A stretch of 64,000 nucleotides of DNA from Antedon bifida (Eukaryota; Echinodermata; Crinoidea; Comatulida; Antedonidae), in contig OY727100.1 of NCBI GenBank assembly GCA_963402885.1, positions 12,245,395-12,309,394 on the forward strand, given 5' to 3'. The notes below the pieces were generated by a model. That model saw only the letters and a program-made list of their open reading frames with translations. It made no database searches and was not told the origin of the DNA. The position numbers and the translations under genes were made by a program. Each line of letters starts with the position of its first letter. Within the stretch, counting starts at the first letter, position 1. Below are positions 6,541 through 50,428 of the stretch, piece after piece.

Positions 6541-7810
6541 AAACAGCATTATAATAAAAACTGCCTTACCAAACAAACACACACAACAATGACAAGACAA
6601 GTTGACAAGATAGACCTTATTACTGTATAATTAAATTACATCAATATTCCGTGAATCATGATCATGAGCTTTACAACCGTCAAGACATTAGATCATGAAT
6701 TTCACATGATAGATTAGCCTCCCGACCGACCACGACAAATAATAATCACACCTATAAATAAATAGCTGGATATTTTTCTCACACAAACGGAATAAGGTAC
6801 CATTTTTAAAGTATGCAATGTCTGTCTGTTGAACACGCATTTAAATTAAATTGTATCTTATTTAAATACCGGAGGTCTTGGGGGAAGTCTCAGCTCTAGT
6901 GCAGTAAATTTCAATATATGGTACACGTTAATATGTATGAGTTCACAAGTTTACATTCTGTTCAACAGATACATCTGTTTCTTTTTAGAGACAAAATTAA
7001 ATTTAAGTTACCCTTTTAGACTAAATTAAATTAGTTCTTTTTAATACACATTCACACATATTAGTTGTAGTAATCTAGGATCGCTTCTGGTATTAGGTTA
7101 TTCTCCACAGAAAGTTCAACTTTATACCTTATTTGTCAATGTAATAATTATCATTACATATTATAAGCTACAGTATGTGTAGTATCTATAGCACAGCATT
7201 GACTAGGATACTTGAGAACGACCACATAAATACAGTGCTGTATTAGCTTTGGAAATCACGGAATTGCTATTATGAATGGCCGCAATGTAGCATCTCAATC
7301 TTAAGGAAATTGACGCCTTGTCCGCATGAGTCAGACATCCTTAACTATCTTTAGGAAACCGCCCCAGCTTACTATTTCGGTTTTAATTTTGTAATTAATG
7401 TATTGATTGTGAAACGAAAAATGAATGAACCGTAACATTTTTGCTAAGTTTTGTTGGCTGATGAAGTTATGATTCATAACGTTAAACTGAACCCCACTGA
7501 TCCTGATAATGTTATATTTTCGGGAATAGCCGCCATTTTGGTTAAGAATATAGCTTGTCCAAGCAGGCATGATTTTTTTCTCAGTCACATTATTTGACGC
7601 ATACGGTCAACTTCAATTCAAACATTGAAAAGAATGTTATCACTCCATGGATCAACTTCAAATATTGAATACATTTAAAAATATGGGTAAAAATAATTAA
7701 GAGATATCCCCTTTGTTAATTGCTGCTATCGCTAAGATAGCACGTTATCACTATTTTCTATGTTAAGGAATTTCAAAATATACATATATATATATATAAT
7801 AATATAATAG

Positions 7811-19747: not shown

Positions 19748-22700
19748 CTAAAATCTTTTGAAAAATGACATGACTGAGCCGACAAGTGTGGGCGATTCTG
19801 GTCTTTGTTGGTCAGGCTCTAACTGTGCTTCACTGTCAATCGTGGATGATTTCTCCTCGCCAAACTCATTTTCTCTTTTGTAAGGTGGTTGATCGAAATC
19901 AAAGCCTGCATTATCAAGGCCACCGTCTTCCTCATCCGAGCTGTCTGATGCATCGGTTGAGTCCAACTCAATTGAAGTAGCTGCAGTTAGGCGCGAATCG
20001 TCCACGTTGCTTTCAATTTCACTGCGTGAAAGTACATCGTCTGCGGCGATTGTCGATGCTGTGCCGTACGAGGGATTAGGAACACGCAGTCTTATATCTG
20101 AATTGCTTTTACTGCTGCTAAATAAACTGCCGAACATTCCACCTCCTGACAGGAAACCTTTTGAAGCAAACCGGTTTTGTCTTCGATCTATGGTTGACAA
20201 GACACTCTCTGTTTCTGAATCTGGATCCTCGTTTTTCACAACCTTTTCTATTGTGTGTACACGTTTTGAAAGCTTTGTTATTTTCTCATTACACTGGGTT
20301 AATGTTCCTTCCATTTTCCTCAGAAAGTCTGTGATTTCATTTCTAATGTAGTTATAAAAACAAGTATCGTTGTCATAGGAACTATCTTTACAAATTTGGT
20401 ATCTCTAATGTAAATAACTAAATTCTACAGAATATTTATGCAATTGGATTTATATATTGTATATTCTGAAATAGTTAACAAACATTATTGTAAATATATA
20501 CATGATTTGGGGAGAATGGGGAGAATTCGGAAAGATGAGGTTCACAGTAGGCCCTACTGCACATTCTGGTTACACAGTATAAAGCAAATCTGTACCAATA
20601 AGCTCATTTCTCCTATTATCTGATAATTAATCAGCTGATTCAACTACTAAATAATCTCTACTGTTTTCCAATCGTTTGATACGCTCTTTACCATTCAATC
20701 AATCAATAAATCTTTTCACCAATGGAAAAAATAGAATAAACACTGATTTGCTCAATAGCAATTGCAAAGAGCTTCTTGGCATGAGGCTAAGTATAATATT
20801 ATACTTAAATAAAATAGTGAAAATTGTGTACAGTGACAAAAATTCAATATTTTATTGCATCGTTGGCATTTTTGTATATGATTTACCATATTAGGTGAAA
20901 GGATAATAATTTATTCATATTTTACTTACTTTACACTTGAGATATCTTGACGAACAGAAATGATGTCCAACTGCGTCACTGCACCCTCAGTGTCATACTG
21001 ATCTGACTTCTTTTCGGCAATATAACGTGCGATCAATAAATGAACTACCTCCTATATTAAAAAAAAGAGTAAGAAATAAAATGTAATCGCACTAAAGAAG
21101 TTAAACAATTGGAGTAAACAAATGTACATACACAGCTTATGAAACATACTAATAACATAAATGTAATGTAGCGAACACTTTAATTTGTGAGTGACCGTTT
21201 TTATAGGCCTACTCAGTTTCGAACAGATTATTTAGCGGTCTACAAAATAGAAAAGCCAAGATTTGTTTTTATCAATAATACCTACATCATATTTCTTCTC
21301 TTTTTCTGCTACTCTTTGAGCATATTTCTGAAAACAAAGCAACGTTTAATTATTTGTTTAGGGAATTCTATACATTTAAAGAACATATAGGCTATGCATA
21401 GTGTGGCATAGTACAATTTAAATTATTATTATTTTATATAATTTTTTTTAATGATAAAAAAAAAAAATGAATAAAAACGAAAGTACACACGTGTTTCAAT
21501 ATTCCCGCATGCGCACAATTAACTAAGATGACGTAGTTCGGTCATCGGTCGTCGCAAATCGAAAACTCCTCAATTTCTCAAATTAGATTTTATATCTATA
21601 CAAATAAACATACATTTCTAGATTTCTGAGCCGCATCCTTGTAACAGCAACAATGCATAATTTCTTTGATCACGTGCCATATACTCTTTGGTGATGGAAC
21701 GAGGTTAAATGGAACAGGAACAGTGGCGGCATCATCAAAGTAACTCATCCACATCTCCGCACGACTGAACTTCCATTCTATATCTGCTTCTTCCTGAACA
21801 CAAAATAGTATTTCTGTAAACATAATGTATCGTTTTATCTCTTTATCATCATTGTCCTTGTCATCTTCATCATTGCTATCATCACCTAAAACGACACTCC
21901 CCCACCCCTTCTAACAATGTTATCACCATCATTTGAGCAATGGTACAGTAGCAATGGTACAGTAGCAATGAAGGGAAGAAGGAACAACACATTTTACTTA
22001 CCTCCACTCGACAAAATGTACTACTCATCATGGCGATTAGAACATTCAATAAAATGATTACTCCAATGACGTAATACGACGCGAAAATAAAGCGACCAAC
22101 GGCTTCAGTGAAGACATGCGTTGAACTGCTCATCAATACATCAAGGTCTTTAAGGCCAAAAAGCGCCCAAAAAAGGGTCTCCATAGAGTGACCAAATCTA
22201 AAATGTAAAGATAAATCTAAATCTTACTAGAAATGAAATTGTTGTTGGTACAGTTTTAATTGAAGCAATGAACATTATGTTTCTTTTATTTTGTCAGTGA
22301 TAACAATTCTAGAGGCCAGGACCTATGATTTATTTATAAAAAAGAATAACATTAAGCATCGTACCCTTAACGTTTTCAAGACCTAAAATTCAAGTAATGA
22401 ATAACTTTGTAGAAGGGAATGACTATAGAAAAATGGTAACTCACGTGCCAAATGGCATTTCTCTGCAGTCCTCTGGTTCAGTTTCTCCAGCCTCTATACA
22501 TTCAATGATCTCCTCTGGTGAATATGGCCAATAGAGCTGCGTAAGTCCAAGAGCAAATGCAACCCAGACCAACGTAAATATAAACAAAAACCTAAAAGAA
22601 ACATGGTGTATTAATCAGATCAGAAGGTTGTTTGTTTCTTATCTATATATACAAAATAGTCAGATGTTCCCACGATAGGCAATTCGTTCTTGTTCATTCA

Positions 22701-25700
22701 TTCATTCGCTTTGCCTATATCATCAACTCTTTAGCAACTTAGCAGGTACACGATGGACACAGTTGTACAATATCTACATTAATTATATACGCCATTAATA
22801 TTACCTTGTAATATCATCGACCATTCCTCCTAATGATATTTGCAGCGGTCCGACTTGATCACTAATAACAATAAGCCGCAACGATCGACAAAAGCTGAAG
22901 ATATTTGCCATTGCAAACATGGCTTCTGCCACAAGATTTGGGTCGTAGTTAGGCCACTCACTGCGGTCCACGTCATCTGTATCTGCACTGGCCTAGCATA
23001 TACAGAATATAAAGATAAAATTATATTTAATCGGAAATGTGAAAGTGTCAATGAGGAAGACAAGAAGAGAAAAGAATGGAAAAGAAGACAAAGGAAAACA
23101 TAACAAGAGGAAACTTGGAAAACAAGGACTAACCTTACTAATAGACACAAACTTGAGAGATATCCAACACCAGTATAAAATCATTTGAAATAAATCGATG
23201 AAATTCCACATATCTTTTACGTAAGCCTTGATGCCATTCCTGTATAACTCTTTGACTTCACGCCAAGTCATACCTATAAAAGAAGAAATGTACGCCGATT
23301 ACTTCATTGCACTTTCGCATTTTTTATCTAGATATTTCTAATTAACAAACACATTGTGTTATGCTCCAATGAATACGCAAAGATCATAATTTATGATAGA
23401 TATTGGCTAAAAGATGGAAATGTTATTAGCCAGGCAGATATATTATGAAAGCAGATGCATCCAGGATGCATCCAGAACAACGATAGAGCACGTGTCGAGA
23501 AAAAAACAGAGCCAGGTCTGTTGATTTCAATTTCAATATTTCTTGTTCGTTTAAACTCTGAAGCCGACTAAATTATGAAGCAAGCAATAGAAAATAAAGT
23601 TTAAAAAATTACCAATAATCCAACTCATAATAAATATTTGTATAACAGTTGGATTGCGCCCTCTAACGCGTAGAGCATGTTCTTGTTGTATTAAATCTTC
23701 AGATACCAGACATGTATCATATTCTTCATCGAGTAAAACCTCTTCATTCGGTATCTGCACATCACTGGTTGCGCATCCAAGCAACACCAGTAATGTGACA
23801 TAAGAAGACGTGTGCATAAGAAACTTGATATACCTTTAATTATAACAATAAAAAGAACCGCTAAAGAATTGTTTGGACTGTATCTACAGTATGTCAATAT
23901 TTAAATATGTTTACAGTTTATATATTTCTGTAAACAGTCTACATTAGTGGCACAGTCAGTATTTAAAATATGATGGTTTAATTCTAACCATTATTAATCA
24001 CCCGGTTCCTGAAGGTATACGATATGAGTTATATGCAAAACTGGTATTGACCAGTTATGAAAAGTAATAGGGTTAACCTTCTAAACGGTCATTAACCAAA
24101 AATAAAAAGTATCTCAAATCTATAATTTAGAGAGAACTTAAACAACAAAAATATTAGACAAATTGGATGTAGATGGTAAATAAAAAAAATAATGCAATAT
24201 TGTTCATGTCATTTACATATATTAATAGTGACATTCGTAAATACGTTTTCATAAAAGTTACAGCCATTTTAAAAAAAGTTTCCCAACTAACCCCACACTT
24301 GATATTCAGAATGAAACAATAGTTTATTACACTTACGGGGTTCGCATAAATGTAGAAATTCTTCCAATCGGTGCGGCCAGATAAAGTATTGACCATATAG
24401 GCCAAAAGATACAAGTAGTTAAAGTCATCAATAGTCCCTTTAGTGATCGATTGGTCCGCAAATCAGCTGATAGACCTTTATACCACCTATCAGTTAAAAG
24501 GATCTGACAGTTCGGATGAGCTACAAACTTAAAGACACAACATATAAAAATAAATAAATAAAAGTTAGAACTGTATTCAAAATATTATTTGGTCCACCAC
24601 CATAGCTTTCGTATCATTCGATTGAACAGGAAATAATTTATCTTAATCGGTTTTTTAATTATGAAAGTTTTTTCACAGCAAAGAAGTATGTTATTTATTT
24701 TTGTTGAATTAATAATCTTGTTTTTCAATCTAATTTTCATCTTGTCCGTGTTTCTATATTGCTCAGTTGGTCTGAACTGTTTACTACATAAATCTGTTGC
24801 GTGTTCCTTGTAAAAATCAGTGTTCCTCTAATATTTCACCCGATTCTACAACTGTCAATAGATACATCCTAACTGGCTAGCGCAAGTCACTGAGATATAA
24901 ATCTAAGTGTAGTATGTACTTTTAATAATTCATTTCTATCTCTAGATTTCTGTGTACAACTGGATTGATATTCACTTTAGTAGATTCCTATACTTACTCT
25001 CTTTTGGTAAAATGTGACAGCCTTTAACACTTTTAATGGTTGTTTAAGCTCAATGACTTCTGGAGTTTTCTTCCACTCTGCACGGTCATGGGTGAGTATA
25101 GTAGACAATTCTTTAGAGTTCCTCGTCTGTCCAAGGAGTTCAGATGCGTACAGTTCAACCTTCAAATGATAATTATGTAAATCAGATAAATATTTAGGTT
25201 ATAATATAGCGTAATATTATAAAAATGCCATAATATTTAGCGTTAAGGTTTGTATGACAAATAATTTGGCATGATTTTCAGATAGTTAGATAATAGTAAT
25301 GCCACGAAACATTCATGAATAATAAACAGTTTACGATATAAAAGTATCACATGTAAAACGCAATGAGTGAACTTCGGATTTTCAAATTATAAATTCGAAA
25401 TATTTGTCCAAAATTGTAGATTTCGATTAGTTATTAGTAGTTAGAAAGGAGTCATTTATGTATAGAAATGTTATGTTTAAGTATTTCACCAGATTCCGGA
25501 AACCATACAACATTATATATAGTAATACTTAACTCGACCATATGTTTGTACAATAATATTATATATGCATAATTTATTCAGCTGCAACAGACAATATAGG
25601 CCTAATGCAAATTGAATGAATTAATATCGGTACTGAGAAAAACAGTGGTACACTGGAAATGCACAGTGTAATTCTTTAATATTACCGTATTTATTCTAAT

Positions 25701-28700
25701 AAACGCTCCGCTTTGAATAAACGTCTCCCTCGAGTAAACGCCAAACTCGAATAAACATTATTGGAATAAACATCATTTGGAATAAATGCTCCCTCGAATA
25801 AACGTGCCGCCACATACATATACACACAATATTGCATGCATTCTAACACATTTCTATTTGTAGTAGAATTCATTGATTGACATGATCTACAATTTACCAA
25901 GCATTTTATACAAGTTTTACTGTATTCTCTAACTATTTTTCTAGGGGCTATTTATTTGGTTATACATGTTATCATAATTACAGCTAAAAAAAATAAAGGC
26001 CCCCCCCCCCACCTTTAAATAAAGGCCCCCTAAAACCCTCATGAACAATAAACGCACCTGGGCGTTTATCCGAATAAATCCAGTAGATATAGATAATATT
26101 GACACGAATTTAACTGCTAATATTTAATAACACGGCCTAAGTAGATATGGTAATAGATCAACGAGGATAGAATATTGATCATAATATATACATAGAATAC
26201 ATATGATTATTACTATTATATTGTTATTGTTATTAATATAAGAACAAATATTACCTGTTCCGCTAATTGGTCGTACTCATTCTTATACTCGTACTCCATT
26301 CGTGCTAAGAGTTTAAGTCTTTTATAAAGTTCAAATGATTTGTCAATCGGGTCATCACTGGTCAAAGAGATATAGAACTCACTGCTCAATGCTTTGTATA
26401 TATTCAACAAGCCGACAGAGTACTGTACTGAATGTTTCTGCCGACTTGTTTTTAACTTCTTCCACGGGTCTGATATGACAGCATTGTGTTGCAAAAGCAT
26501 CTGTAATAATAAATTGGTGTTACACTTTGGTGAAAATACAAGTTTCTTGTTTATGTGATGTTGATCTTGTGATGTCTATGTGAAGTTAATATTGTAATGA
26601 AACTTACCTTTATGATGTCATGGTTATTTGTGTGTGCTGCTAGAATAATTGGTGTGATACTTGGATGAAAATCCTCATTATCAGCTTGTGAGTTTATCAT
26701 ATTCTGTGTCATTCCCTAAAAAATACCATTGGAATATATAGAAATGAAGGAAGTTAAATAAATAAATTAATTAAAGTACAATAATTAAGTTTAATTAATC
26801 AAAACCACGTGCATTAGTATAAGACTTCAGACAAATATTTAGAAATGAATTAATTTCTATTGTATTACTGGGCAAGGTTTCTCTATGTATGTATTTTCTC
26901 TATTGTATAGAAATAACAATAATAATAATACTGTAATAACGTTATCCATTTTTAATCAAGGTGCTTTAAACAGTCCTGGCTTTGTTTGTATCAAACCTGT
27001 TAGTGGCGGTAATTATCGCTGTTGGTTTCGATTGAATAAAATAAAATAAAAATACAAACATTTACAAATTGTAAATATTGTAATAATAATGATATTTTAC
27101 ATATAATATATTGATATGAATGTAGTTGTACGGTTTATTGATTTTTATTATTATTTATTTATTGAATTATTTAATTTAATTGTTTTTAATATTAGTAAGT
27201 GATATGATAGTATTGTTGTTGTTTATTTATTTAATTATTATTTTAGTATAATTTAATTGTTAAAAAATACTTAATTTCAGCTTATTGCTGCCACTGTATT
27301 TTTATTTTTTTTTAAATAAAAGATACCATGAATAATAATGATAATTGTACTTTTTATTTTAGGCACGGTTTAGGCAATTTTTACCAGTTCATTTCCTCAA
27401 ACATCATCCAAAACCCCCTGGATAATGTATTAATTTTTGATAAGCTATCAAAGCTCAGAAATATTTTTTGCTTAAAATTACATTTTTTCAGGTAATAATT
27501 TTGTTATCGATCCCATTTTTGGTTAAAGTGAATAACTATTATGTGAAAAATATTTTTCAGGAGGGCAATATATTTTTAAATGAAACAAAATACTATTTTG
27601 ATAAAAATCACTGCACACGGTACTAAGAATATAAAAATTCAAACCATCGTAATATCAACAAATACGAACATGAAAATAAACGTTAGAAGGCCTATTCAGA
27701 ATGACTTGAAACAACATACCAAATTATTTATGTAACCATGTAATATAATAAGATTCAATGAGTACCAGGTGTTAGTATTTGAAGAACTATTGGTCGTAAT
27801 CGGTATTTTCATAATGATAATATATGAAATATTATTTATTGATTTATTGATTCAATGTTATTATGCACGGACAACTGTGCACAAAAACTACGAACGTGTA
27901 TTACCATGTTAACAAAATTAGGCCTACCAAGATTGGCGTAACTAGTATATTCATAATGGCAATACAGCCATGAAATATTGTTTTAAGATTGTAATGTTGT
28001 TGTTCGATTTATATAGCGCTTATACAATCAAAAGATTGTCCCAAAGCGCTTAGAGAAAAAACAGAAAGAAATTACAAAGAAAAAAGATGGGTTTTTAAGA
28101 GTGTTTTGAAAACTATGATAGAGGATGCATTTTTAATAGGATCAGGAAGATTGTTCCACATTTTAGGAGCTGCAACTGCAGGTCTTAATGCGGCTGGGTG
28201 GAACAAAAAGTGCAGATGGATTAGTGGTCGACCTAAGATTCAATATTATTATCCTGAGACAGGTCTTATATATTCAAACAAATGTAGGCCTACCCATCAG
28301 TGACTAGCTATTCAAAATATGAATATTATTGACATAACAAAATAGTTATACTTATAATGTTTACCATTATTAGTTAGACTTAAAAAAACACAACAATTGA
28401 TATTAAATACCCGTATGTTTTTCAAATTGCAGATGAAACCCAAACAAATTTAATGACACAGCATATTTCACAAAGTTGAACAATATAGGCCTAACACAAC
28501 AAATAATGATGATGGTGATAAATAATGATGATGGTGATAAATTATGATAATTTAAATTGTGCTGTTATTTCAACGGGAAGACACTTACCGTTATGTTTTA
28601 AAGGCCAATATCATTGGAAGAAAAAAGATATGGATATTTTCGGGATTAAGCGTACAGTATATAATTAAACATACATTAGGCAACAGTATAAATGATCTAC

Positions 28701-31700
28701 TCTACCTTAAAAACACATATTCTAATTTAACAGATATTATGCATAGTATTATTCAAATAATAATAATTATTTTATTTTTTTTTCCATTTTAGGAAAAATA
28801 TTTACCTGTGGTGATCGAGCATATTCGAGTAAAATGTCAACTACTTTAACGTTCTGCATATCCACCGCTCGCAAGAGTGCGTCCCCAACGTTCACATCGT
28901 TTTGTAAAAGAACTTTTACTATTTCTGAAAAGAATTAGTTGATTGATTTTAGAAACAATTAAAATAACATTTGTTTACCACCTTTATAATTTAAGATGAG
29001 CTTTCAGAGGAATGTTTAGATTAAAAAATGTAATTCAATTGTATCGGTAATTACTCAGATACTTGGCAAATGACCCTTCATTAGGATGGACCCTCATCTT
29101 ACAATAGAGAATTGTAATTCATAATAGAAAATGCCAGTACCGTTATTAAAGCGGAATATACTTTAATTTTCTATAGTTGCAAGACATTCGGCGTTGTTCC
29201 TTTATTTGCATTAAATTATCAATAGATCTACAAAATTATAACAATTGCAACAACTTGGAGAATAGTTTGATATCACCAATTTACCTATGTTGTTTGATTT
29301 AATTGCGACTGCTAGTGCATTTTTACCATCTGGGTTTGTACAGTTTTTATCAAAGTCACAATGAGAAAGAGCGAATTCCACAGCATCCAGATCACCACTT
29401 TCGGCTCCCTTTAAGTACAGTTGACGAAGAGTATCTTGATCTACCTCTTCTTCCATCATAGAAGTATAGCGTGACTCCTACAAATCGAGGGGAAAATAAT
29501 AAACAATCGATTATTATTATATAACTGCATCAATGGTTCAACACCCGTCTATTTACAGGAACTAATTCAGAAGTATAACCCTGGTCGCCAGATATTACTC
29601 GTCTTGCAGTTCCTAAAACTATTTGGTGATAAATCATTTTCTGTCATTGGACCTAATTTATTGCATAATTTACCTATTAATGTGCGTATACAATGTTTTA
29701 AGAAATTGTAAACAAGATTTCTTTTCCCATAGGAATAATTTAGATGTTCTATTTGTCCTTCTATACTGCTCTAATCATTGTACAGCGCTTTGGTCTTCTT
29801 TTTTGGAAAATTTTAGATTCTATAATCTATAAATAGATTTTATAAACCTATATAGTATAGTATAGTATTATTAAAAAGATCAACAAATTAAGTTACGCGG
29901 GAGAGCTACATATGTAATTTATGAAGGGGGACTATTATTACATTCGATATCAAATACATATCTTTCTCTGTATCTTCAGTAAAATGACAATGAAATTAAA
30001 ATACAAAGTGCTGAATTGTCAGTTCTTTACAGTCATAAAAATTGATATAATATAAAACAATTATAAAAATAAATTAATTAAAAACAAGCTGTATAAAATA
30101 TATATATATGTAAAAAGATAAAAAATCAAATATAAAGTCTCGATCACTATATACAATTATAGATTTACTAAATTTGTATTTACTATGTTGAGTTTTAAAA
30201 AATATTTTGCGGTACGGTAATATAGTTCACTATGTCGGTCGGTCGGTTGGTCGGTCTGTCTGTCTGTCGGTCCGGTATCACTATGCATTGTAGCACGCGA
30301 CTTAATGGCTGTTGGCCTTGTTAAATTCAATGTTGCGGAACCTTTTTTTGTTACATGGCTAGACAAATGAAATATATTCCATCTTCTTTCCTTTGATTAA
30401 ATTATATATTTACTGAGTGTTGTGGTTTTCATTAGTTAGTGCATTCGTGCATACGAGATGAATTATAATGAACGTATGTTTACTCTGCTAATAACATTGA
30501 AAAACAAACAACGTGATAAACATTATGATGTCCAATAGTATCATCACCAACGTATAGTACGTACGTCCTATTATACTGTATATATTGTAAAAGAGAGAGA
30601 ATTTAAACTATTTCATCTACAATGCTGCATTAATTAATTTGTACATGAATGACAATATTCTGCGAACGGGAATATATAATATCAATAAAAAATAAAGTAT
30701 AGAAATAAATATATGTGACGTAAAACCTAAAAATAAATGTAATATTGTGCACATTGTTAATGAAAATTCCATTATTATATATTTTTAAATATTTTTTGTA
30801 TACAAAAGTATATAGTTTAAATAGGAAAGAAAGAAAACAGAAAAAGTATGTACATCATTAACACTATTGAACTTTCTTGCTAAAAACATAATGAAAAAAC
30901 ACATCATATCAAAATAAAATCATATATCAAACAATAAATACAAAAACAGTATACATATATACTATAAAAATAGAAACAATATTAGAAGATATATTTTACC
31001 TTTACATCAACCGAAGTTAGATCTATCAAACCACTCTTACGTTTGGTTATAAGCATGTAGGCCTACTTTAAGTTTTCAGATAATATATCCAACGGCTATC
31101 TAATATTTCAAGGCTTTATGATCATTACGAAATATGTATTAACGTCGTAGTAAAAAATAAAAGGACGTTTCTATGAATTCAACCTGCTGGTAGTATGAAA
31201 TGTACGAAGCGTATAGTCACGTATCACACAATGCGTCCGTATTTATACATAAAAACAATAGACTGTGAAAAACATTATAATAGTAAACAACCTCCCATAG
31301 AATATAAGGTCATCAATGTAGGCCTACCTTTTAGTAAGATATTCACTTATTAATGCTGTATATTCACGTATATAATATAAGTAACTCGGCACCAGGGTGG
31401 GTTTACCTCCCCAAGCCCAGCTTTAAATGAAGTAAAAACCAATAAAGTGTATGAGAATGCCTTGAATGTTTTGAAGTTTTTATCTTCTTGTAGGCCTAAA
31501 CGGTAAATGTCCCCCACAATATGGGAATGCCTAAAGAGAGGAGTTACCAAAGGAGTTCTAGTAATGTTTTATAACGTTGACTGTACAGTAAATACAGCAC
31601 GGTTCGTATTTTATCTTCGTATATTGCTAATACTGTACTTTTATCATTGTTTAAATATAGAAAAACTCGATTACATCAATTTGATTTTATATTAAATTGA

Positions 31701-34961: not shown

Positions 34962-37900
34962 ATGGCTGAATATAATAGAAAAGGCCAAAGGTAAGTTTAC
35001 TCATACGTATTACCATTATCGGTATTTTAAAAATTACATTAAGATTGAATTATATCAATATGATATGTATAAATATACGCAGGTTAGACATGTATATCAG
35101 GCACCGAAGTCATGCGAGTGAGATTGGGGGTGTATAGGTATGAAACGAAATGTATAATATATGTTAAAACAAAATAATATTAATGGTTCCATAATTATAG
35201 AGTATTAACAACATTTAAGATTCATAATTTAATGAATTTCGTGTTGAGGTAAATGAAGTCCTAATATAACTCGTATTTTTGTACATTTTTAATTCAACAT
35301 TTATGCTGTTGTAGTAGTTATTATCTATAAATAGTTCGCTTTATAGTTCCCATTATAGTGAAGACATTCAATTACATACGTTGAGGCGTATATCCTATAA
35401 AATACATAAGAAAGAAAATGACCAAGATATGCCAACTGACAGTACTCTCGAAGAGGTTTTCCTGCGGGCAGCAGAAAAAGGAGACATAGAAGCAGTCTCG
35501 TATGCGTTACTGCACAAGGAGTCCTTCGATGTCAACTGCCGAGATAAGAACGGCGATACTGCGCTTCAACTGGCGGTAAAGAATTCAAGTGCAGGTAGGA
35601 AAATTTCTATTAGGGCTACTGAATTATATATATATATATAAATAAGATAATATTCACTGATAATAGTTGCAGGTAGGCTTAGATAAGATGACGTAATCTT
35701 GTTCTTGGGATAAGGTTTTCAACTGCGTTGGTTATATGGGATATAGGCTAATTGGTACGTTCTCAGTAGTATCGTCTTAAATTGCGTTTTGTGGCAGTTA
35801 AATGTATGGTGGTAAACTTAAATGGACTGTGTACACGAGAGTTTAGTTTGAATTTTGTGTTCATGCAGCTTTAAAAATTAAATGTTAAATGTATTATTCT
35901 GGTCCTCAAGCTTAACTGGAAACTGAGGAAATTCGGATTAGGCCCTCCACGGACCCACGACAGCAAACAATGCAGCGCCTACCAGATCACCACACCGGGA
36001 GAACTCTTTACGAGTAGTGTACCAGGTTCTTTAACATGCACTGTTAAGTACACGGGACCAATGGCTTTACATCCCATGCGAAGGATGAGGCAATGACAGT
36101 AAAGCATCTTGCATAAGGATGCAATTAGTATGGTACAGATAAACTCGAACCCATGCCTATCACAATGCTTTCCGATATTATCATTACACCATAACATACA
36201 GCACTCGTCGCTATTTCTAGACGGTCTCCTATCCATAACGCAACAGCTTTGAATTCTTTGTTTAGTCAACTTTTCACTGATATCCAAAGAAATAGAAATA
36301 ACACACATTTAGTGAAGCATCGGACCAACAGGCGATAAACCTCTAAAACGGTCCAGTCCCAATTTCACAATAAGCCCATCTATGAGTAGTGGCCGTGTGT
36401 GGCAGGGCTACTAGTGTACTAGTACACCGGCGTAGGCTAACCCCCTACTCGTTTCGAAAGATGTATAAAGTGCATTTACCTTGCCTATTGTAGGCCTACA
36501 TATCTATTGATTTGTAATTTTCATAACATTCTAGTAAAATGAATTTTGAATTGCTTAAAACAAACCACTTTAAATAAAATTAATTTGCTACTTCAAACTC
36601 AGAAATACTCAGTAATACGAAAAGTATTGTTTATTTATAAAGAGGTAATCAAACTGATGTTAGATGGCGGTATTCATCCAGGCGACTCTCTACTGAGGGC
36701 GATTGACATGCAGAACATGAAGATGGTTGATATCATTTTGAACTTTGCAAAGTCGACACAGGTATAAAAGAAACGGTTTTATCTTGATTAAAAAACCTGT
36801 TTGTGTTATCCTATTTATAAACTCTTGAAATATGTGCTTATACATTGTTTATGGATTGTGTGTCCATATAAGAAATAATAAAGGTAATTTATAAATTTTC
36901 CGACAAAAAGTAGGCCTATATCGGATAATTCAGTTTTGGTTTACATATAGCCGTACATTTCAAATAGCCAACGAATAAAACATATATTGCTGTATTTTTT
37001 TAGTTAAAAATGTTTATAGAATATCTATGCATACAAACTAAGAAAAAAAGAAAGATTATTAAATATGTTTTTTTTTTGTCTTTTGTGAGATTAACTCATT
37101 TATTAAAAGAATCTTCATTGTGTTTAATTTCAATAGTATCTTCTAAAAAACTGCATTTCGTGTCTGTTTTTTGTTCATTCTTTTTCACACATTGTGAATA
37201 TCCTCTTATCCATTTATAAGAGATGACTCGAACTAGAAAAGTTGCTTAATATTTGGCGGCCCGGCTCATGTTTGAATTTGAACTATGATCAGTGGCTGTG
37301 TGTGTACTAGTACACCAGGTTAACCCCCTACTCGTCTAGAAAGATGTACTAGGTTCTTTAAAGTGCACATGAGCTAAATATGTGTACACTGGACCTACGG
37401 TTCCTTATCCGAAAATATTAACTACACAAAAGAATTCGAAATTAGGCAATAAGTTATTATTTTATTTCATTCTAGGGTAAACAATACAATATAATTAATT
37501 CTGGTATGGATTCAGACGACTTTCATCCGGTTGTTACTCCTCTAGTTTTAGCTGCCCAGAACAATAACCACGATATAATCAGGGTAGGTTACACTATCTA
37601 TAAAATATTCTATTTCTAAACATTGCAAGGTATTCTATGTGAAAATTGATGAATAATCAATAACGTAATCCACGTAGGCCTATTATTATAAACAATAATC
37701 TGAAATTAATTTTGGGTTGCAAATTAATTTTGGGTTGCAAATTAATTTAACACTCGCATCATATTGATGAAAGGAGGCCGCAAACATCCAGCGGGCAGTA
37801 AAAGTCATTTTCGAATACTGTAGGCCTACTATTCTAATCTATAGATATAGTATTGGTACTCATTCAAATTGAATCCAATTGAATGTGAGATCAAAGTGTC

Positions 37901-40900
37901 TAATGTAGTCCATTTATGTAAATGTAGTGACAACACCATGCGGGCCGCGATATTTCCCCAACTTATGTACGAAAAATAAAATCGCATGCGGGCCATTCGT
38001 AACACATTTCTTGTACACTGCAGAGGTGATAATCACAAACTAACCAAATAAACAAGTTGTACTTACCGTCTATTATGTAATGTACTGATAGATAACTCCA
38101 AAAGATTTACTCACAATATAATAGGCTATAGCAAAGCAGCAACAATCAATAATACAAATGGTGATTAATATTCTAACATATGTCGATTTACTGCTCATGA
38201 ATATTCAAGATATTGCAAATTTATCTACATTAGGCAGATGTTAATCAAATGTGTAAATTGTGCAGTTACCTTAACTTATCCGGTTGGAGCTTGGGTAATT
38301 CTTCGAATTCTTCCATAAGAAGAGATTGCTTCGCGTCGATCATACCTGTATTGAAATTAACATATTTTATTTTATTTAGGATCTAAAACATACAAGGATT
38401 GCACCCACAGAAATGTCCTCCAAAACTAAACCTAGAACCCCACCTACGAAAACAAAATTTATCTTCATTTCCGGTAGTGGTATTCCAAGAGCATTCCATT
38501 ACGGGCATTTCGCCATGGATTTCTATGAGCTACATTGTTGTAAAGCTCTGTCTACACTATCAAACTAGTTTGACAATAAAAGGGTGATGTCCCCATATGT
38601 GGTATTGATATACCTATATATGATAGTGATATGACATCATCATGTCCATTATATGGGGACATCACATAACATTTGATAGTGTAGACAGAGCTTAATCACA
38701 TTATTTTACTGCAGGCATTGTTGCTGAATGGAGCGCATCTTATTGATGATCCTGGTGTTCAGGAAGATCCAAACGAGTGCCACACAGTGGAATACTCTAT
38801 TGGTATTCTCCACATATATAAAGCACTTTCTGGTGAATTCTACATTGCTCTCACCAGCAAAGATCCCATAGACGCAGCATTTTCCATCTGCCGTCGTCTA
38901 GAGAAGCTTCAAGACAGGGAGTATGAATTTAGAGCCGAGTATGAAGAACTTAAGAATCAGGTAAGCAGCTGCTGCACTCATCACACACCTCTAGGTGACC
39001 AACTTGGTCGAGCTCTGCACTGTTTTCTACGTTCACTTTTATCTTTTAATGACATTAATGGTAATAATTTAGTGTTCGGTAAATAAATGAATATTATAGC
39101 CTTGCCTATCTTTATTTACAGGTTTCAAATTTCTGTTGTAGTCTTCTCGACCAGTTACGTGGATCAAACGAACTCGAAACTGTCTTGACGCACGATTTGA
39201 AAGTGTGGGGAGAAGACTACACAACAGTCTCTGACAACCAATTGTTGAAACTAGAGAGGGCGATTGAACACAAACAGAAAGCGGTGAGATCAAAGTTTAC
39301 GTTGTCAATTTATGAAATCATTTGTGAAAGTACGTAAACATATCCATTATAAGCTTATCCTCTAAATGTCTTTCAGTTTGTTGCACATCCTAATAGCCAA
39401 CTAATAATGACAAAACGTTGGTACGAAGGACTACCGATTGGTTGGCGAGACTACTCAGTAGCACGTGATGCTGTTGGAAGTATACTCATTGGATGCAGTT
39501 TTCCGATATTTTCTGTATTATACCTGTTGTTTCCGTTTGGATGGATAAAGAAATTTGTCCATACACCGTTAGTGATATTTGTTGTTTTCGTAACTTTTTC
39601 CAAAATAACTATAATTTAATTTGTTTACATCTTAAGTTAGTCCTAGACTATAAACTATCTCAAAATAATAATAATCATATTGTGTTAATTGCCTTTCAGA
39701 CATGTGAGATTCTTATTTGAAACATTTTCGTACTTTACGTTTCTTTCTTTACTGATTATAAGCACATTATATAATCAGGACCCATCGCCTGCAACCAACT
39801 TCTCGTTTACAAAGGCAGAACAACTCGAAATAGAACAGTTCTACGACAGGGAACGAGGCAGGTTACCTTCTGTAACATCAATCGTGTTATACATTTGGGT
39901 CATAGGTTTGTAATGTATTTATTTTGATGTAACATTGCATTGAAATGTTAATAATAATAATGTAAATATAATGTAATTGAAATGTAATTGTACTGTGACT
40001 TGGAATGTCATTTTAATGTAATTGTAATGCAGTTGTAATACAATTGTAATTTAATTGTAATTACAATGTTATTGTAATGTAATTGTACCTGTAATGTAAT
40101 TATTCATGTAATTTAATACAATTTGTAAATTAATTGTAATGTAATTACAATGTTATTGCAATGTAATTGTACCTGTAATGTAATTGTACATGTAATTCAA
40201 TACAATTTGTAATTTAATTGTAATGTAATTACAATGTTATTGTAATGTAATTGTACCTGTAATGTAATTGTACATATAATGTAATTGCACGATGACTTGT
40301 TAAATGTCATTTTAATGTAATTGTAATTGTACTGCAATTGTAATTTAATTGTAATGCAATTGTACTATAATTACAATGTAATTTTAATGTAATAAACATT
40401 TTATCTTATCAATCTTATGAACGGAATAATAAAAAATACTGTAAACTGGCCATTACTTTTTAGGAATGACAGTACAGGAAAGCAAACAAATATGGCAATG
40501 TGGGTTTAAAAAGTACATGAAAGACAAATGGAACCTTATAGAGACGGCGCAAATTCTTCTTTATTCCGTGTGGATTTTATTAAAAGTTGCTGCATACTTT
40601 GAGGTAAAAATTAAAAATTGTTCTCATTTACAGTGTAATGAGTGCTCTAACCTGGGTTTATTTTGGATTGTAAGTACCACAAATATCACACAATGGTAAA
40701 TACTGTCTATTTAGCAGCAAATGCATTACACACCTTTACTTCTGGTTATTATAATGCTCCTTTGTTTATGCTCTCGTTTAAAATTCATCAAATTACAAAT
40801 ACGTTCTGGCCTTTACGGACAACGAATAAGTAATGTTTATGTATAGTTTAAAATTAAATTTCAGATACAACGAGAAGGCGATATATATGTTGCCAATCAG

Positions 40901-43900
40901 GAAAGATGCGATTTCTTCGAACATGGTCCACCGTGCTATGCAGCCTACTACACCCATCATGAATTCAGTATATGCTGTGATCCCGATTTAAGCTTTTACG
41001 GCGATTGTTTGAATAAGTAAGCGGTCTCATATTATTTATGTTTTATATTAATGTACAGCGTGAATCCAACCAAGATAGTATTTATTTTTACATTAAATGT
41101 AGTTTCTGACCTTAAATCTAAAATCTAAAAAACGTAGGGAATGGGACTTTCCATGTCTCAATCAACATCCTTGGTTTATCTGCAGGACATCTGCCTGTTA
41201 TTGGTGAAAACATTAGATATGTAATAAAGTCATCATTTTACACCAAGTTGTTCCAATTTGTTCAATATTTGAAGATTAATGTTACTTAGTCTCTCATCAA
41301 TTGAATAATGATGCCTGTTATAAATCTATTATCTAACAGTAATTTAGGCAATTAGTTTTGACCTCTTTTGAGGTCATTAGTCCTGTATTTCATTGACATT
41401 TACCATGTATCTTTATAAGATTCTATTTCTATTTTTAGTTCTGACTAAAAAGATATAGCCTACATTTTACCAATACATTATCTTACAGGCAATGCGATGA
41501 TGGCTCAACATTTGATGGAGAAAGGTGTGTACAGCGGTATTTCAACAGTACAACTTACACATGGACTGACGTATCAGGTTCCACATTGTGTCCTGATAAT
41601 ACAGCATGGGATGGAGAGGCATGTCGTGAAATGCCAAGCTGCTACAATAACTACATACTTTATGGAAGTTTGTTTACGTGTTGTTTAGTAAATCTCGAAA
41701 GAAGCGTCTGTGAATTACATCAGTGTGTAATCGATGGCGGTTATTATAACTACAACGGCAAAGATTGTTATCTATACGAAAATGGTCGTTACGTTGCATA
41801 CGGCAATGGAACTGTTTTGAAAAACGACAACAAAACCTGCGATCAGTCTGAAGAATACCAACTCGCGATTCAGACTTTACGGCTTCTTGTAAGTGACTGC
41901 GGTGGACAACCAGTGGACGACGGTAAACTAAAAGAGACAATCGACAGTTTACTGACATCGGAATTCCAAAGTGGTTATATCGAGGTTACAGATATCATTG
42001 AAATTCGGAATTTAAGTGATTATACCAGTTCATCAGAATATTCTTACTCTTTCAATAGTGAAGAGTTTGATTTTATATCTCAATATTTCTCAAGCTATAG
42101 TTTTTTCCTAAGCAGACGTGAATGGAACAATGATGACCCTAACCTGGTTGCCGAAGCTGCATTTGCCATTGGTAATATCTGCAGTTTTCTTAGACTTCTG
42201 CAGCTGATTACTAGTAGTCGTTCCATAGGTCCTCTCGAGATATCATTAGAGAGGATGACTTCGGATATTGCAAGATTCATGGTTATTTTTATTGTCATAT
42301 GGTGGGCGTTTGCAATGGGTATGACACAGCTTTATTACCCATATGCCTCAGCAACAATTCTAAAATGCATTGAAGATGGAGGCGAGCAAACAGGATGTTT
42401 CCAAAATCCATTTGCCGGGTAATTGTCTTACCTATACTATTAAGGTTACTAAAATACTTCTTCCATAGATTCTGCTTACTTATACCACTACTACTACTTT
42501 TTTTTTTCTTTTGTTGTTAACTACCATCTTTATTCAACAATTACAGAATCTCATATATATATTTACATTATTTTCTGCATATTTTTTTTTTATGTTATCT
42601 ATTACAAAATATATTGCATGTTTAGTGAAAAAAGTTGTTTAGTTATGAAACGTTTGTTAACTTATTTATCATAATTTGTGTATCTTTCAGTTTATATATT
42701 TGTATTTGATTTGCCCTTTAGGGAAATGCTTAAAAAGTGGTGTAGTATACCAGGCCACTACTACTACTTCTTATGTTACTTCTACGTTTGCTGCTGCTGC
42801 TGTACCTACTGATGCAGTTACTGTTGTGGCTACTGCTAATGCTACTTCTGCCAATACTGCTGATAATGCGGCTGCTAATGTGGCTACTGCTAATGCGAAT
42901 GATGCTACTACTGCGATTGCTGCTACTACTGCTGCTTCTACTGCTGCTGCTGCTGCTACTCCTGTTGCTACTACTATTACTGCTACTGCTGCTACCGCTG
43001 CCACCGCCGCCGCTCATAGTGATACTGCTACTCCTACTTCTACTGCTGCTACTGCTATTACATACTGCTGCACTGCGCCTATTACTACTATTGTACTGCT
43101 GCTTCTGCTACCACTGCTGCTACAGTACAGATACTGCTAATGTTAAATCTGCTTCTGCTACTGCCACTGCAGGGATTCTCCGTATATGTTTCTGATAGAT
43201 TTTCTTGTACAATTTAAAATTCTACATCTTCTGGTTTAAAACGTGACAAGTTTTAAATGTTGTTACATTTTATGGAATCAAGAACAAACATACTAGTAAT
43301 TATAAGCTATCCACTAATTTGTGATACTGTAATAATAATGAATAACGTAGTACCAACTGTTTTTAGCTTTGCAGAAGGGATGGAAACCTTATTTTGGGGA
43401 CTGGTTGGATTAGGCGACCTGGGCATTTTAGATACAGGTACAGATCATTCCATTACGGAAGGTGTGGGTACAGTTATGTACGCAGTGTATATTGTGATGG
43501 CAGTTATCATTCTGCTTAATGTACTTATAGCCATGATGAGTAACACTTTCAGTCAAATACAGGTAAACAAATATTCGCACGCTAAGGTTATAAAGACATT
43601 AAGGCCAATTTACAGATAATTGGTAACGGTAAGCGAAAAAGCGCGTAGCGTGTCCCATAGAATACGATGTCTATCTTGGACGGGTTTTAGCTCATAACAT
43701 ACAGGATTCTATGTTTTTCCCCGTTTACCGCTTACTGTTACCGCTCGTGTGTAAATTGCCCTTTAAAAATCAACAGAGCGAGAATGAGAGTTTACCAATA
43801 TGCTGACAGCAGTCACGGAATAAGGCTTGGTTCCCATTGCGCTACTTTTGCGTTGCTTCCAAGTGGGAACAAATATGTAATTTGAATGATGTGCTGCGAT

Positions 43901-45646
43901 AACGTGAAAGCACTCAGAAACTGAGTGAAGTAGTGGGCAAAATATATTAGGGAAACCTATATTCCGAGGTAGAGGGCTCACTACTTGATATTAATGTTAA
44001 ATGAATACAGAGGGCGTGCTATATCTCATATGGACGATACAGGAAAGTGAAATTTTAATTGAATAAGCTTTTGTGACGTGACCAATATATCAATAACAAT
44101 AGGCATGTATGTATATACCTATGTACAGACATTTTCAGAATTTCAGAATGATAACTTCAACATTTTAGGCGCTATCGTGCTAACAACAAACAAACAAAGC
44201 AAGTAATAATACTTGTAAAAATTATATTTGGCCAAATAAAAAATACCATTCTTAGTCTCTGTTTTAAACTACGGTAATTTATAACGCCATTTCGAACTTA
44301 TGATATTTGTTTTATAGGATAATTCTGATATCGAATGGAAGTTTAGTCGATCAGCCATATGGATTTCTTATTTCAACAAACAAATCGCGCTCCCGATTCC
44401 ATTTAACATTCTTCCGAATCAAAAAGATATATTTGAATTATGCAGAGGTATTTTAAACAGGGCATTCTGTCATAAGACTGAGAAGGAGATGAAAAAGGTA
44501 TGAAGTAAACATCGATATTATTAACAACATTTTAGTTAAAACATTATTATAATTAAGTTAACCATTATCTTTACAACATAAACATTGAGAAGACCCTGTG
44601 CCAAAATGTTGCTAAATCGACGTCTAGAACCAAGACTACCATGACGAAAATTGCCAAATGTATTTTCACACTGCAAAAATATATCTCAACTTAACCCAAA
44701 ATCACTGTGACTCATATAATAGTCCCCTACTAGTATATACACACAATCTTACAATACAGTACCACTATATTGAAAAATAAACTATTTTCAACAGAAATAC
44801 AAGGACAAAATAAAGAAGAAGAACCAAGAATATCAGGTATGACATTATATATATATATACACTACATACATTCATAACATTGATTATTAATAATAAATAG
44901 ATCCAACAGTTTCATAACATTTCAATATGTTTGTGTTTCTAGGAAGTAATGGATAATTTAGTTGCCCGCTTCATTGCTGACAAGCGGTCGTCTGCTTTTG
45001 ATACAGACGATGCCGTAACACAGACAGACGTCATCGATATACGGTCTGATGTAACCGAGTTTAGGTAAATACAAATAAAACATTGTTTTGTAATTTTGTA
45101 AGCTACAAACTCCGAATTCAGATATGTAACATTTTTTACATGAAGTAAAATTGTAACAGCATGATTTCAAATTGTTTAGCCTTACCTATTAATAATTTGT
45201 AATTTATAAAGTCGATTAAATTTGATTGGAATTATACTTCTCATGATAGGAATGAAATGATTGAACTATTTCGCAACGTTGAGGGCGCTATTTCAAACTG
45301 CGTCGATAGATGTGATGAGATCTTTGATACCGTACTTGAATTTGGTGATTCGCTTGACGTAATAAATGGAAGTATTAACGGCAAAGAAAAGTCTAAAATT
45401 GTCAAGAAGCGGGAAATCAGGAACAAAAATGTTACTGAATTTCAAGAGAAGCTAACATCCGTAGGCCTAAAGCAACCTGGTGCACAGATGAGGCCTAGAC
45501 CTACACAAGTATACAAACGTCGTACGAGGATAGTTGGGCATGCCCAGCTTGATTATGTTCCAGAATCAGACGATGAGAATGACGAGGAAGACAACCAACC
45601 AACCATTCCTTCTTTTTTTCAAAGGATCGGTGACCTTCTAGCTTGA
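34962..45646 (+). CDS. TRPC-like cation channel B with a large extracellular S3-S4 insertion
   Basis: Sixteen exons join in frame: 34962-34990, 35386-35594, 36643-36761, 37476-37583, 38715-38960, 39122-39283, 39377-39567, 39700-39905, 40464-40603, 40865-41016, 41489-42418, 43367-43562, 44318-44497, 44795-44836, 44943-45064, 45250-45646 (3429 nt, 1142 aa). Order: ankyrin repeats, TRP_2 region with FVAHPNSQ, S1-S3, an insertion at residues 471-736, S4 from 737 (DPNLVAEAAF), S5, pore METLFWGLVGL (836-846), S6 LLNVLIAMM, TRP-box EWKF (902-905), a CIRB-like segment, and an acidic tail ending in a hydrophobic segment with PSFFQR. The insertion carries 17 cysteines and four N-glycosylation sequons (N540, N627, N635, N695), consistent with an extracellular position. 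It departs from channel A in the filter (V-G-L for F-G-L) and after the TRP box (LPNQKD for VPSPKS). The first exon is short and rests on splice phase alone; the rest is strongly supported. Confidence 0.93.
35940..36165. repeat. SINE-like interspersed repeat
   Basis: It contains 'gtgtaccaggttctttaaca', 'ttacatcccatgcgaagga' and 'actcgaacccatgc', a layout I associate with old tRNA-derived repeats of marine invertebrates. It lies in intron 2 of TRPC B. Confidence 0.5.
36360..36475. repeat. SINE fragment
   Basis: 'gtgtactagtacacc' and 'ccccctactcgt' are shared with the copy at 37259-37425. It lies in intron 2 of TRPC B. Confidence 0.5.
37259..37425 (-). repeat. SINE, reverse orientation
   Basis: It ends 'gtgtacactggacctacgg' then 'ttccttatccg', the reverse complement of the tail at 51915-52090, and its left part matches 36360-36475. 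It lies in intron 3 of TRPC B. Confidence 0.6.
38541..38694. repeat. MITE family T1, copy 3
   Basis: This is the best-preserved copy: left end 'taaagctctgtctacacta' continuing 'tcaaactagtttgac', right end 'gatagtgtagacagagctt'. It lies in intron 4 of TRPC B, about 20 bases upstream of the exon 5 acceptor. Confidence 0.85.
39926..40400. repeat. TAATTGTAATG-type minisatellite with an 84-bp higher-order unit
   Basis: The tract is almost wholly variants of 'aatgtaattgt'. Within it 'acaatgtt' recurs at 40063, 40147 and 40231, exactly 84 bases apart, with matching flanks, so a higher-order unit has been duplicated. It lies in intron 8 of TRPC B. Confidence 0.9.
40865..42136 (+). other. Cysteine-rich extracellular insertion of TRPC B
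   Basis: This is exon 10 and about the first 650 bases of exon 11 (the intron 41017-41488 lies between), encoding residues 471-736 between S3 and S4. The first part is cysteine-rich: C-x10-C with FDGE (C523-C534), C-x10-C with WDGE (C555-C566), C-x13-C (C600-C614), and several CC pairs. The second part is acidic and rich in Ser and Tyr, with few cysteines. I recognise no known domain. Channel A has only about 17 residues here. The frame runs without a break into S4, so it is not a mis-joined neighbour. Confidence 0.85.
42755..43165. repeat. GCT/ACT trinucleotide tract in an intron of TRPC B
   Basis: About 400 bases of imperfect (GCT/ACT/TCT)n give open frames of Ala/Thr or Leu on one strand and Ser/Arg or Ala/Val on the other. 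The flanking exons (ending 42418, starting 43367) join in phase without it, so it is intronic. Confidence 0.85.
43820..44035. repeat. Interspersed repeat sharing ends with 57510 and 63850
   Basis: 'aaggcttggttcccattgcg' resembles 'aaagcttggttcccactaga' at 57509. 'cactcagaaactgagtgaa' and 'agagggcgtg' are shared with 63870-63930. It lies in intron 12 of TRPC B. Class unknown. Confidence 0.45.
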
Positions 45647-48812: not shown

Positions 48813-49066
48813 TGGTTATGCATCATTATTAACGTTACGCAAAAACTAAAATTATTGTTTTAGAGTTTATGCTGCCTATGAGTTATATAAAACACGTATA
48901 TTGCATCATAAATTGTTTTGCACTAAAACTTAACCAGAATATATTTACGGAAAAATAATATATTATATATTTTCTCCTCATTTAGATATTGTGTATTGAA
49001 AAATACCTTACCGATAAGCCCGGCGATAGTAAGCGTGACTGAATACACAGCAAATTAAAAATAGAC

Positions 49067-50428
49067 ATGAATCTTAATTCATATTTAAGTCCAAGAAAAA
49101 CTAAAAAGCCATCGACGTTGAAACAACCCGCCTACGAACCAGAGGCAAAGTACATAGACAAACAAACGGCAATATCAATAGCAAAGAAATTAAGACTTTC
49201 AAAAATAGGTAATGTAACACTGCGTATAACCAATAAACAGATATCAGAGTCTGATGTCACTGTTAGCGTTAACGATGCTAGGCCTACGACAAGAAGAATT
49301 ATTATGGATCGCAACAGAGGTAGAATGACGGCGGAGAACACAAAAAGTAGCGCCGTTGGAAAATGCATTTTAGTATCAAATGATTACGAAAGTAGGCGAC
49401 TTTCGAGAAGCTACGAAGGCATTGATGGACAGAAAGAGCAGAAACGTAAGTTTATGATGCAGAAGAAAAGAGGCTTTGCTCAGCGTCAACTAGCTAAACT
49501 ACAAGAGGATGAACGTGAAAGTTGTAGGCCTAGCGAAGTTACAAAAAGTCAAATTCAAAACGTAAATGGAAAGAGCAGAACTATTCCACATTACATGAGT
49601 CCTTTAAAATGTGACAAGAAAGAACCAATTGATCCCGAGGTTGCTGAAGTAACTCGTTTCATTGCAGGTAACCCGGATCCACGGTTACAAGACGACGTAA
49701 CAACATTAGCAAACGGTGTAAACGACCATCAATACAAATCCAGAAAAACGGAAAACGGAAAATCTCATTTTGTGCGAAAACCTGTTAAACCAAAGAACGT
49801 TGTATCAAAGGGAAGTGTAAACAGAATTCCCGTTCCAAAAATTGAATTTTCGTGTACCGACAATACAGATGACTCGATAAGTAACTACTCTATTGAATGT
49901 AATTCTGATACAGAGTTGGATGAGAATTATGTCAATCATAACTCATCTCTGAAAGTATATCGAGAACAAAATAAAGGCAATTTAAAGATAAATAAACAAA
50001 ATAATAAATCAAATGGAATTCGAGTGGATATCACGAAAGAAACTGAACCAGATGCAGAATTACTAAACACCAGAAGCGAATCTCGGACGACAAAAACAAT
50101 AATATCACAGCTCATAGCATTGAAGAAGACAAAAGACAAAGGACTAACACCTAGACCAGCCTCCAGAAATGCTATTTTGCGTAATCGGGCAACGAAGGAA
50201 GCAGTATCTCAACTAAACCCTGCAAAAGACCCTCGTTTTACCAATCTGGCATCGTCTTTAGTTCCAGATTCTGCCAAGTCACATGATCTGTATAAATCAA
50301 TGGGACGACTCGAATTAGACAACGAATTTGTATGTCAGATTCCTACAATTGACAAATCCCTTATTTTTCTTAATGATGTGTATGTCCAACGCCATGGCAA
50401 TTCAACAAGTAGGTTGCATACATCATAA
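49067..50428 (+). CDS. Unrecognised basic, low-complexity protein (gene E)
   Basis: One uninterrupted frame of 453 codons, starting MNLNSYLSPRKTKKPS and ending at TAA 50426-50428. I recognise no domain. It is rich in Lys, Arg, Ser and Asn, with a charged helical stretch (KEQKRKFMMQKKRGFAQRQL) and no signal peptide or membrane segment, so it is probably intracellular and largely disordered. Near the C-terminus AKDPRFTNL resembles LKDPRFKNL of gene F at 8813-10684, at a similar distance after a basic stretch, suggesting distant kinship. The length and lack of stops make a real gene likely. It may be the only coding exon, since no in-frame splice partner was found. An AATAAA lies at 50841. Confidence 0.75.
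   Translation: MNLNSYLSPRKTKKPSTLKQPAYEPEAKYIDKQTAISIAKKLRLSKIGNVTLRITNKQISESDVTVSVNDARPTTRRIIMDRNRGRMTAENTKSSAVGKCILVSNDYESRRLSRSYEGIDGQKEQKRKFMMQKKRGFAQRQLAKLQEDERESCRPSEVTKSQIQNVNGKSRTIPHYMSPLKCDKKEPIDPEVAEVTRFIAGNPDPRLQDDVTTLANGVNDHQYKSRKTENGKSHFVRKPVKPKNVVSKGSVNRIPVPKIEFSCTDNTDDSISNYSIECNSDTELDENYVNHNSSLKVYREQNKGNLKINKQNNKSNGIRVDITKETEPDAELLNTRSESRTTKTIISQLIALKKTKDKGLTPRPASRNAILRNRATKEAVSQLNPAKDPRFTNLASSLVPDSAKSHDLYKSMGRLELDNEFVCQIPTIDKSLIFLNDVYVQRHGNSTSRLHTS

Follow-up and report, generated by a model that had tools for sequence, protein, structure and literature searches.

A 64,000-nucleotide window of the genome of the feather star Antedon bifida (contig OY727100.1, positions 12,245,395 to 12,309,394) contains a TRPC channel gene, here called gene B, in which the linker between transmembrane segments S3 and S4 is 266 residues long and holds a cysteine-rich module. 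In TRPC channels the S3-S4 linker is extracellular. The same module, with every cysteine in register, is found in the predicted orthologue from another feather-star genus, Anneissia, and because this second genus kept it, the module is probably a real working part of the channel. There is an even chance, in our judgement, that the linker became a folded, disulfide-rich, probably N-glycosylated ectodomain that acts as an extracellular regulatory domain.

Gene B and its S3-S4 insertion

The model of gene B (35429..45646, forward strand) is an open, splice-consistent reading of 15 exons and 1118 residues, with GT/AG at 14/14 introns and no internal stops. Judged from its sequence, gene B encodes a TRPC cation channel, a type whose members conduct cations under receptor/PLC control. 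Its matches to the Pfam families Ank_2 (4.5e-12), TRP_2 (5.9e-9) and Ion_trans (5.3e-20) all exceed the cut-offs. When the piece encoded by the long exon that carries S4 was compared with solved structures, 33 of the 48 sequences listed at E up to 0.01 were TRPC or TRP-gamma chains (1.6e-18 to 1.8e-14), the remaining 15 being TRPM8 at 0.0021 or worse. An EWKF-type TRP box is a feature of TRPC channels and is present in the model as IEWKFSR. The model also contains ETLFWGL before the pore end; a paper on human TRPC3 names the LFW motif (PMC5967863). Hydropathy peaks of 1.53 to 2.76 match pre-S1 and S1-S6, and the maximum within the insertion is 1.21, which is not a peak of membrane strength. 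The first exon probably lacks part of its 5' end, because the frame stays open upstream of the ATG at 35429, where it reads EDIQLHTLRRIS and resembles DIELHTLRRLTS, which stands close to the N-terminus of the Anneissia protein.

The end of S2 and all of S3 are encoded by an exon at 40464..40603 (forward strand, ending in phase 0; hydropathy peak at residues 424-442). The insertion, residues 447-712 of the model, is encoded by 40865-41016 joined to 41489-42134 and continues in frame into S4-S5. An earlier reading of this window, made from the sequence only, had described a TRPC channel with just such an in-frame, cysteine-rich insertion, and its count of 17 cysteines and four N-glycosylation sequons was reproduced on recounting. 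The interval it gave, 40865-42136, does hold the insertion but also takes in a 472-nt intron and overruns the start of the DPN motif by 2 nt; its residues 471-736 are the same 266-residue stretch, numbered differently in the present, probably 5'-incomplete model.

The first insertion exon (40865..41016, forward strand, 152 nt) encodes five cysteines. The noncoding intron that follows (41017..41488, 472 nt, GT...AG, phase 2) joins it to a frame that is kept in Anneissia. The second part (41489..42134, forward strand) forms the first 646 nt of the long exon at 41489-42418 and encodes the other 12 cysteines and all four sequons, namely NST at residue 516 (41544..41552), NGT at residue 603 (41805..41813), NKT at residue 611 (41829..41837) and NLS at residue 671 (42009..42017). 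The S4 motif DPNLVAEAAF begins in the same exon at 42135, and the rest of the exon (42135..42418) encodes S4, the S4-S5 linker, S5 and the start of the turret, as indicated by matches to TRPC4/5/1/6/3 and TRP-gamma chains and by hydropathy peaks. The end of the pore and S6 follow on an exon at 43367..43562 (forward strand), assigned from the Ion_trans match and the gene model. The intron between the S5 and S6 exons contains, at 42740-43190 on the forward strand, a trinucleotide-type repeat (tactgctgctac and variants) that is open in several frames.

The insertion consists of a cysteine core of about 174 residues and a tail of about 78 residues leading into S4. With solved chains of TRPC4, 5, 1, 6, 3, TRP-gamma and TRPM8, matches to the long-exon piece begin no earlier than its residue 198. 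Because the solved TRPC chains cover the last 11-18 residues of the insertion, these probably belong to the normal linker before S4, which leaves about 250 residues that look foreign. Two stretches of the insertion, at its positions 15-53 and 96-130, have their cysteines in the order C, C, CC, C, C. The first framework unit, C-x12-CC-x9-C-x4-C-x10-C, is split by the intron (40934..41528), and the second, C-x12-CC-x8-C-x4-C-x13-C, lies at 41640..41768 (both on the forward strand, coordinates by hand). Their shared form, C-x12-CC-x8/9-C-x4-C-x10/13-C, is suggestive of an internal duplication, with modest support from the residues themselves: the score was reached by 50 of 2000 shuffles for gene B, 2 for Anneissia, and 6 and 115 for the two cross comparisons, and with the cysteines held fixed by 235, 48, and 55 and 356 of 2000, respectively.

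Conservation in Anneissia and the identity of the module

A protein search with gene B residues 440-745, covering 1260 candidates at E up to 10, returned a sole match, P0001 (E 4.5e-102), a predicted TRPC4-like protein ("short") of the feather star Anneissia japonica that a tree identified as the gene B orthologue (support 100/100). The insertions of the two proteins share 17/17 cysteines and 16/16 identical spacings, and the 174-residue core aligns gap-free, with 89/174 residues in agreement. The NST and NGT sequons, 2/4 of those in gene B, stand at identical positions in Anneissia, NLS has one sequon nearby, and NKT is missing. Identity across the insertion is about 50% (core 51%, tail 47%), compared with 76% in the N-terminal part, 76% in S4-S6 plus the TRP box, and 62% in the C-terminus. 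By simple arithmetic, the chance of keeping 17/17 cysteines at an average of 51% each is near 1e-5. Because all cysteines and all spacings are unchanged in a second crinoid genus, the module likely folds as a disulfide-bonded outer unit. It belongs, on this comparison, to the B lineage, predates the Antedon-Anneissia split and is common to at least two feather-star genera.

An annotation or splicing artefact, in which an intron or rare exon has been read through and the real linker is short, would draw some support from the Anneissia model, which looks wrong in S1-S3. This explanation is nevertheless highly improbable. Fixed cysteine spacing is conserved in another genus, and the chance of a stop-free run of 266 codons is about 6e-9 at the local base composition. 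Skipping the 152-nt first insertion exon alone shifts the frame. Of the eight in-frame AG sites that the long exon has before S4, one alone, at 42066, would produce a short linker, of 23 residues, and it has a weak pyrimidine content of 0.50. Six AGs at 42059-42116 are richer in pyrimidines (0.61-0.78) but are all out of frame, and directly before S4 the long exon offers no acceptor that is both in frame and preceded by a good run of pyrimidines. A short-linker isoform of gene B is thus unlikely.

Several observations weigh against a folded regulatory module. At 50% identity the insertion is less well conserved than the other parts of the channel, as a free cap would be too. P0001 is a predicted record with no sequenced transcript, and its S1-S3 stretch matches gene B at just 14/86 aligned residues and is unlike any TRPC S1-S3; the record has probably taken the wrong exons here. 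No gene B orthologue of Antedon mediterranea was present among the best 120 of 638 matches, though a near-identical protein should rank first. The number of cysteines, 17, is odd. Finally, structure prediction, which had been proposed together with a profile search as a check on the insertion, gave an unusable model of the long-exon part with a mean pLDDT of 40, built from two sequences and without S3 or the five cysteines of the first exon.

The profile searches gave no family match. All searches for relatives of the module were sequence-based, so that a relative in fold only would escape them. Against Pfam, the gene B and Anneissia insertions had best E values of 0.12 (UL97) and 0.18, none significant; the P0001 record names no Pfam domain in its insertion. 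The best non-channel Pfam match of the long-exon piece was 0.091. NCBIfam, a library made for prokaryotes, gave nothing significant for either insertion. A search of PDB by sequence and with two profiles found nothing better than 0.1, and the best rows (a cellulase at 0.1, an RNA polymerase subunit at 0.64, FBF-2 at 2.2) were taken as chance. Among 1261 candidate proteins in the insertion's own length range there was no relative at E up to 10. A second genomic copy was not found: the Anneissia insertion used as query returned two matches to gene B itself and one at E 2.4 (L016), whose frames are nothing like a channel and which was taken as chance, and the long-exon query returned no insertion match besides gene B itself at E up to 0.001.

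These results bear on the possibility that a known small disulfide domain (somatomedin-B-like, knottin-like or EGF-like) was captured and has diverged past sequence recognition. This reading concerns origin and is compatible with either a regulatory or a passive role. The repeated cysteine order fits it, as does the single intron that cuts into the module. The C-C-CC-C-C order recalls that of knottins, in which it goes with threaded disulfides, and CCDPDLSFYGDC recalls somatomedin B. The somatomedin-B family was not among the Pfam families listed up to E 10, in a search whose HMMER filters remove the bulk of matches weaker than about 0.1, and the only EGF-type domain listed was teneurin EGF (E 0.45, 10.5 bits versus a cut-off of 65). 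With nothing significant in Pfam or PDB, only gene B and the E 2.4 match in the animal's own genome, and only P0001 among proteins, we consider such a capture rather unlikely. In searches of an open-access library, which lacks most subscription papers, none of the listed titles and abstract openings describes a module of this kind in a TRPC of crinoids or other echinoderms. The module of gene B looks like an undescribed domain family.

Long S3-S4 linkers and a possible outer regulator

Gene B has a sister TRPC in the window, gene A (21286..29459, reverse strand; modelled to 21286, with C-terminal exons beyond), which lies head to head with it about 6 kb away. Over 705 residues gene A shares 97.9% identity with a TRPC5-like protein of Antedon mediterranea. 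Its S3 exon (23273-23134) and S4 exon (22992-22805) leave 16 residues between the end of the S3 exon and DPN, close to the 17 or so of the sequence-only reading, which had used gene A as the point of comparison and regarded TRPC S3-S4 loops as normally short. For TRPCs at large this view stands. In a survey of the best 120 of 638 matches (from 8000 scored candidates) plus genes A and B, which is no census and used fixed anchors that include six S3 residues, the linker was at most 48 residues long in 119/122 rows. The longer ones were P0001 (274), gene B (272) and P0003, a TRPC4-like protein of the hemichordate Ptychodera flava (178).

A different picture emerged from the relatives of gene B. 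A genome search with the long exon gave at least 13 matches, which comprised gene B, two exons of gene A and 10 further TRPC loci. In six of these 10 loci (L017-L020, L024, L025) the loops, cut from open frames, have about 78-144 residues and 0-5 cysteines; the other four (L021-L023, L026) have shorter loops, by eye about 20-50 residues. A tree of 26 rows, with the loops of gene B, P0001 and the loci left out, recovered an 11-row clade (100/99) of gene B, P0001, gene A, P0002, the six long-loop Antedon loci and P0003, within which gene A plus its orthologue is the sister group of gene B plus P0001 (100/99). Some caution is due: L024 and L025 cover fewer than half of the alignment columns, the branches of L018 and the outgroup are long, and branching inside the clade is only partly settled. 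Since P0001 and P0002 are the orthologues of B and A, the A/B duplication precedes the Antedon-Anneissia split on this tree. Apart from A, B and these orthologues the clade has seven members, each with a long S3-S4 loop (cut at about 78-171 residues) and mostly with few cysteines in it; only gene A and its orthologue have a short one. Long S3-S4 loops are thus the usual state in this crinoid and hemichordate TRPC clade, and gene A, short only together with its orthologue, is a poor yardstick. Either the clade ancestor had a long linker that was lost in A, or the site tolerates additions and gained long linkers more than once. In gene B and the six long-loop loci, the loop, S4 and S5 lie in one open frame; in gene A an intron interrupts the S4-S5 linker, which would agree with A as the derived form.

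The long loops of the clade share position with the gene B insertion but little else. The seven other loops were compared with the insertions of gene B and Anneissia against 300 shuffles each, and none showed a convincing likeness to the module. The L025 loop beat 300/300 shuffles against gene B, but 13/300 reached its score against Anneissia and the alignment differed outside the shared stretch. For L019 the score was reached by 4/300 (gene B) and 70/300 (Anneissia), and for L024 by 109/300 and 6/300; all three candidates were rejected. The loops of L017 and L018 are clearly alike (score 124, 0/300 shuffles). The search for the same insertion in other animals, proposed earlier, found it in Anneissia japonica, so that it is not confined to one animal; the hemichordate loop shows no clear likeness to the module. 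Two loops are of note in themselves: that of L025 (C15, oriented 6589-6960) has 5 cysteines and 6 sequons in about 121 residues, and the 178-residue linker of P0003 has one cysteine.

These comparisons bring in the main rival explanation, passive elaboration, in which linkers at this place are tolerant and the B version is folded but has no sensing role, its disulfides serving stability, shielding, trafficking or glycan display. The seven long, mostly cysteine-poor loops, none convincingly like the module, favor it, and so does the faster change of the insertion relative to the channel. The 17/17 cysteines, 16/16 spacings and gap-free 174-residue core point instead to a constrained fold, although a passive fold would also be constrained. 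Passive elaboration is a tentative reading that we hold to be less probable than not by a clear measure.

The proposed regulatory role has a parallel in the TRPC family. Folded outer domains inserted in the sensor-like domain are known from polycystin-2 and TRPML, where they lie between S1 and S2; the gene B insertion lies between S3 and S4 and is not of that kind. A closer parallel is the long S3 of TRPC3/6/7, which in human TRPC3 combines with the S1-S2 and S3-S4 linkers into an extracellular domain (PMC5967863). This domain has a cavity that the authors proposed to be a sensor of external stimuli, and the same paper cites glycosylation as a determinant of basal activity (PMC5967863). Gene B likewise has extra outer structure at this place, but the TRPC3 ectodomain is described as solely alpha-helical and has no cysteine-rich module. 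The longest linker among the measured TRPC3/6/7-type rows is 48 residues between anchors, and TRPC6/7 rows fall in another clade of the 26-row tree than gene B. The earlier suggestion of a folded, disulfide-bonded outer module has gained from the conserved cysteine pattern, which makes a fold likely, and lost some of its singularity to the long loops of the clade and the TRPC3 precedent.

By analogy with the human TRPC3 ectodomain, the gene B module may regulate the channel from outside and is perhaps an outside sensor. Each tetramer would carry four copies of it, folded on the outer side of the membrane next to the voltage-sensor-like domains. If the module bound a ligand or a matrix component, or changed its redox state, the S3-S4 linker would shift, and this shift could bias S4 and the S4-S5 linker in a channel otherwise driven from inside. 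A bolder version, which we regard as improbable, holds that the module is an orphan disulfide fold with an internal duplication, present in no proteins searched other than those of feather stars, and that it made of a TRPC channel a receptor-channel directly gated or tuned from outside via the S3-S4 linker. The crinoid and hemichordate clade around it would then have tried out S3-S4 ectodomains more than once. For the question whether TRPC channels sense anything through their outer S3-S4 region, gene B is of use, as it has a conserved, folded-looking module exactly there. Together with its minimal-linker sister A and the cousins with long plain loops, it makes a natural panel on which deletions, grafts and ligands could be tried.

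Other features of the window

Two large open reading frames (ORFs) without a Pfam match flank the A/B pair, one on each side (8813-10051, reverse strand, and 49043-50428, forward strand). An inverted duplication of the neighbours was considered and found no support, the two ORFs having in common only a KDPRF.NL stretch (E 0.093). Beyond the second of them, a reverse-strand ORF at 51099-51641 matches ALKBH8_N in Pfam (1.1e-4) and contains FADDTALIG, which recalls a LINE-type reverse transcriptase. On the forward strand, the window also encodes a Frizzled-type cysteine-rich domain (Fz; 2884-3285, Pfam 4.4e-29) followed by an fn3 domain (3454-3798, 6.9e-8), and a sialyltransferase-like ORF (Glyco_transf_29; 56162-56683, 1.8e-25).

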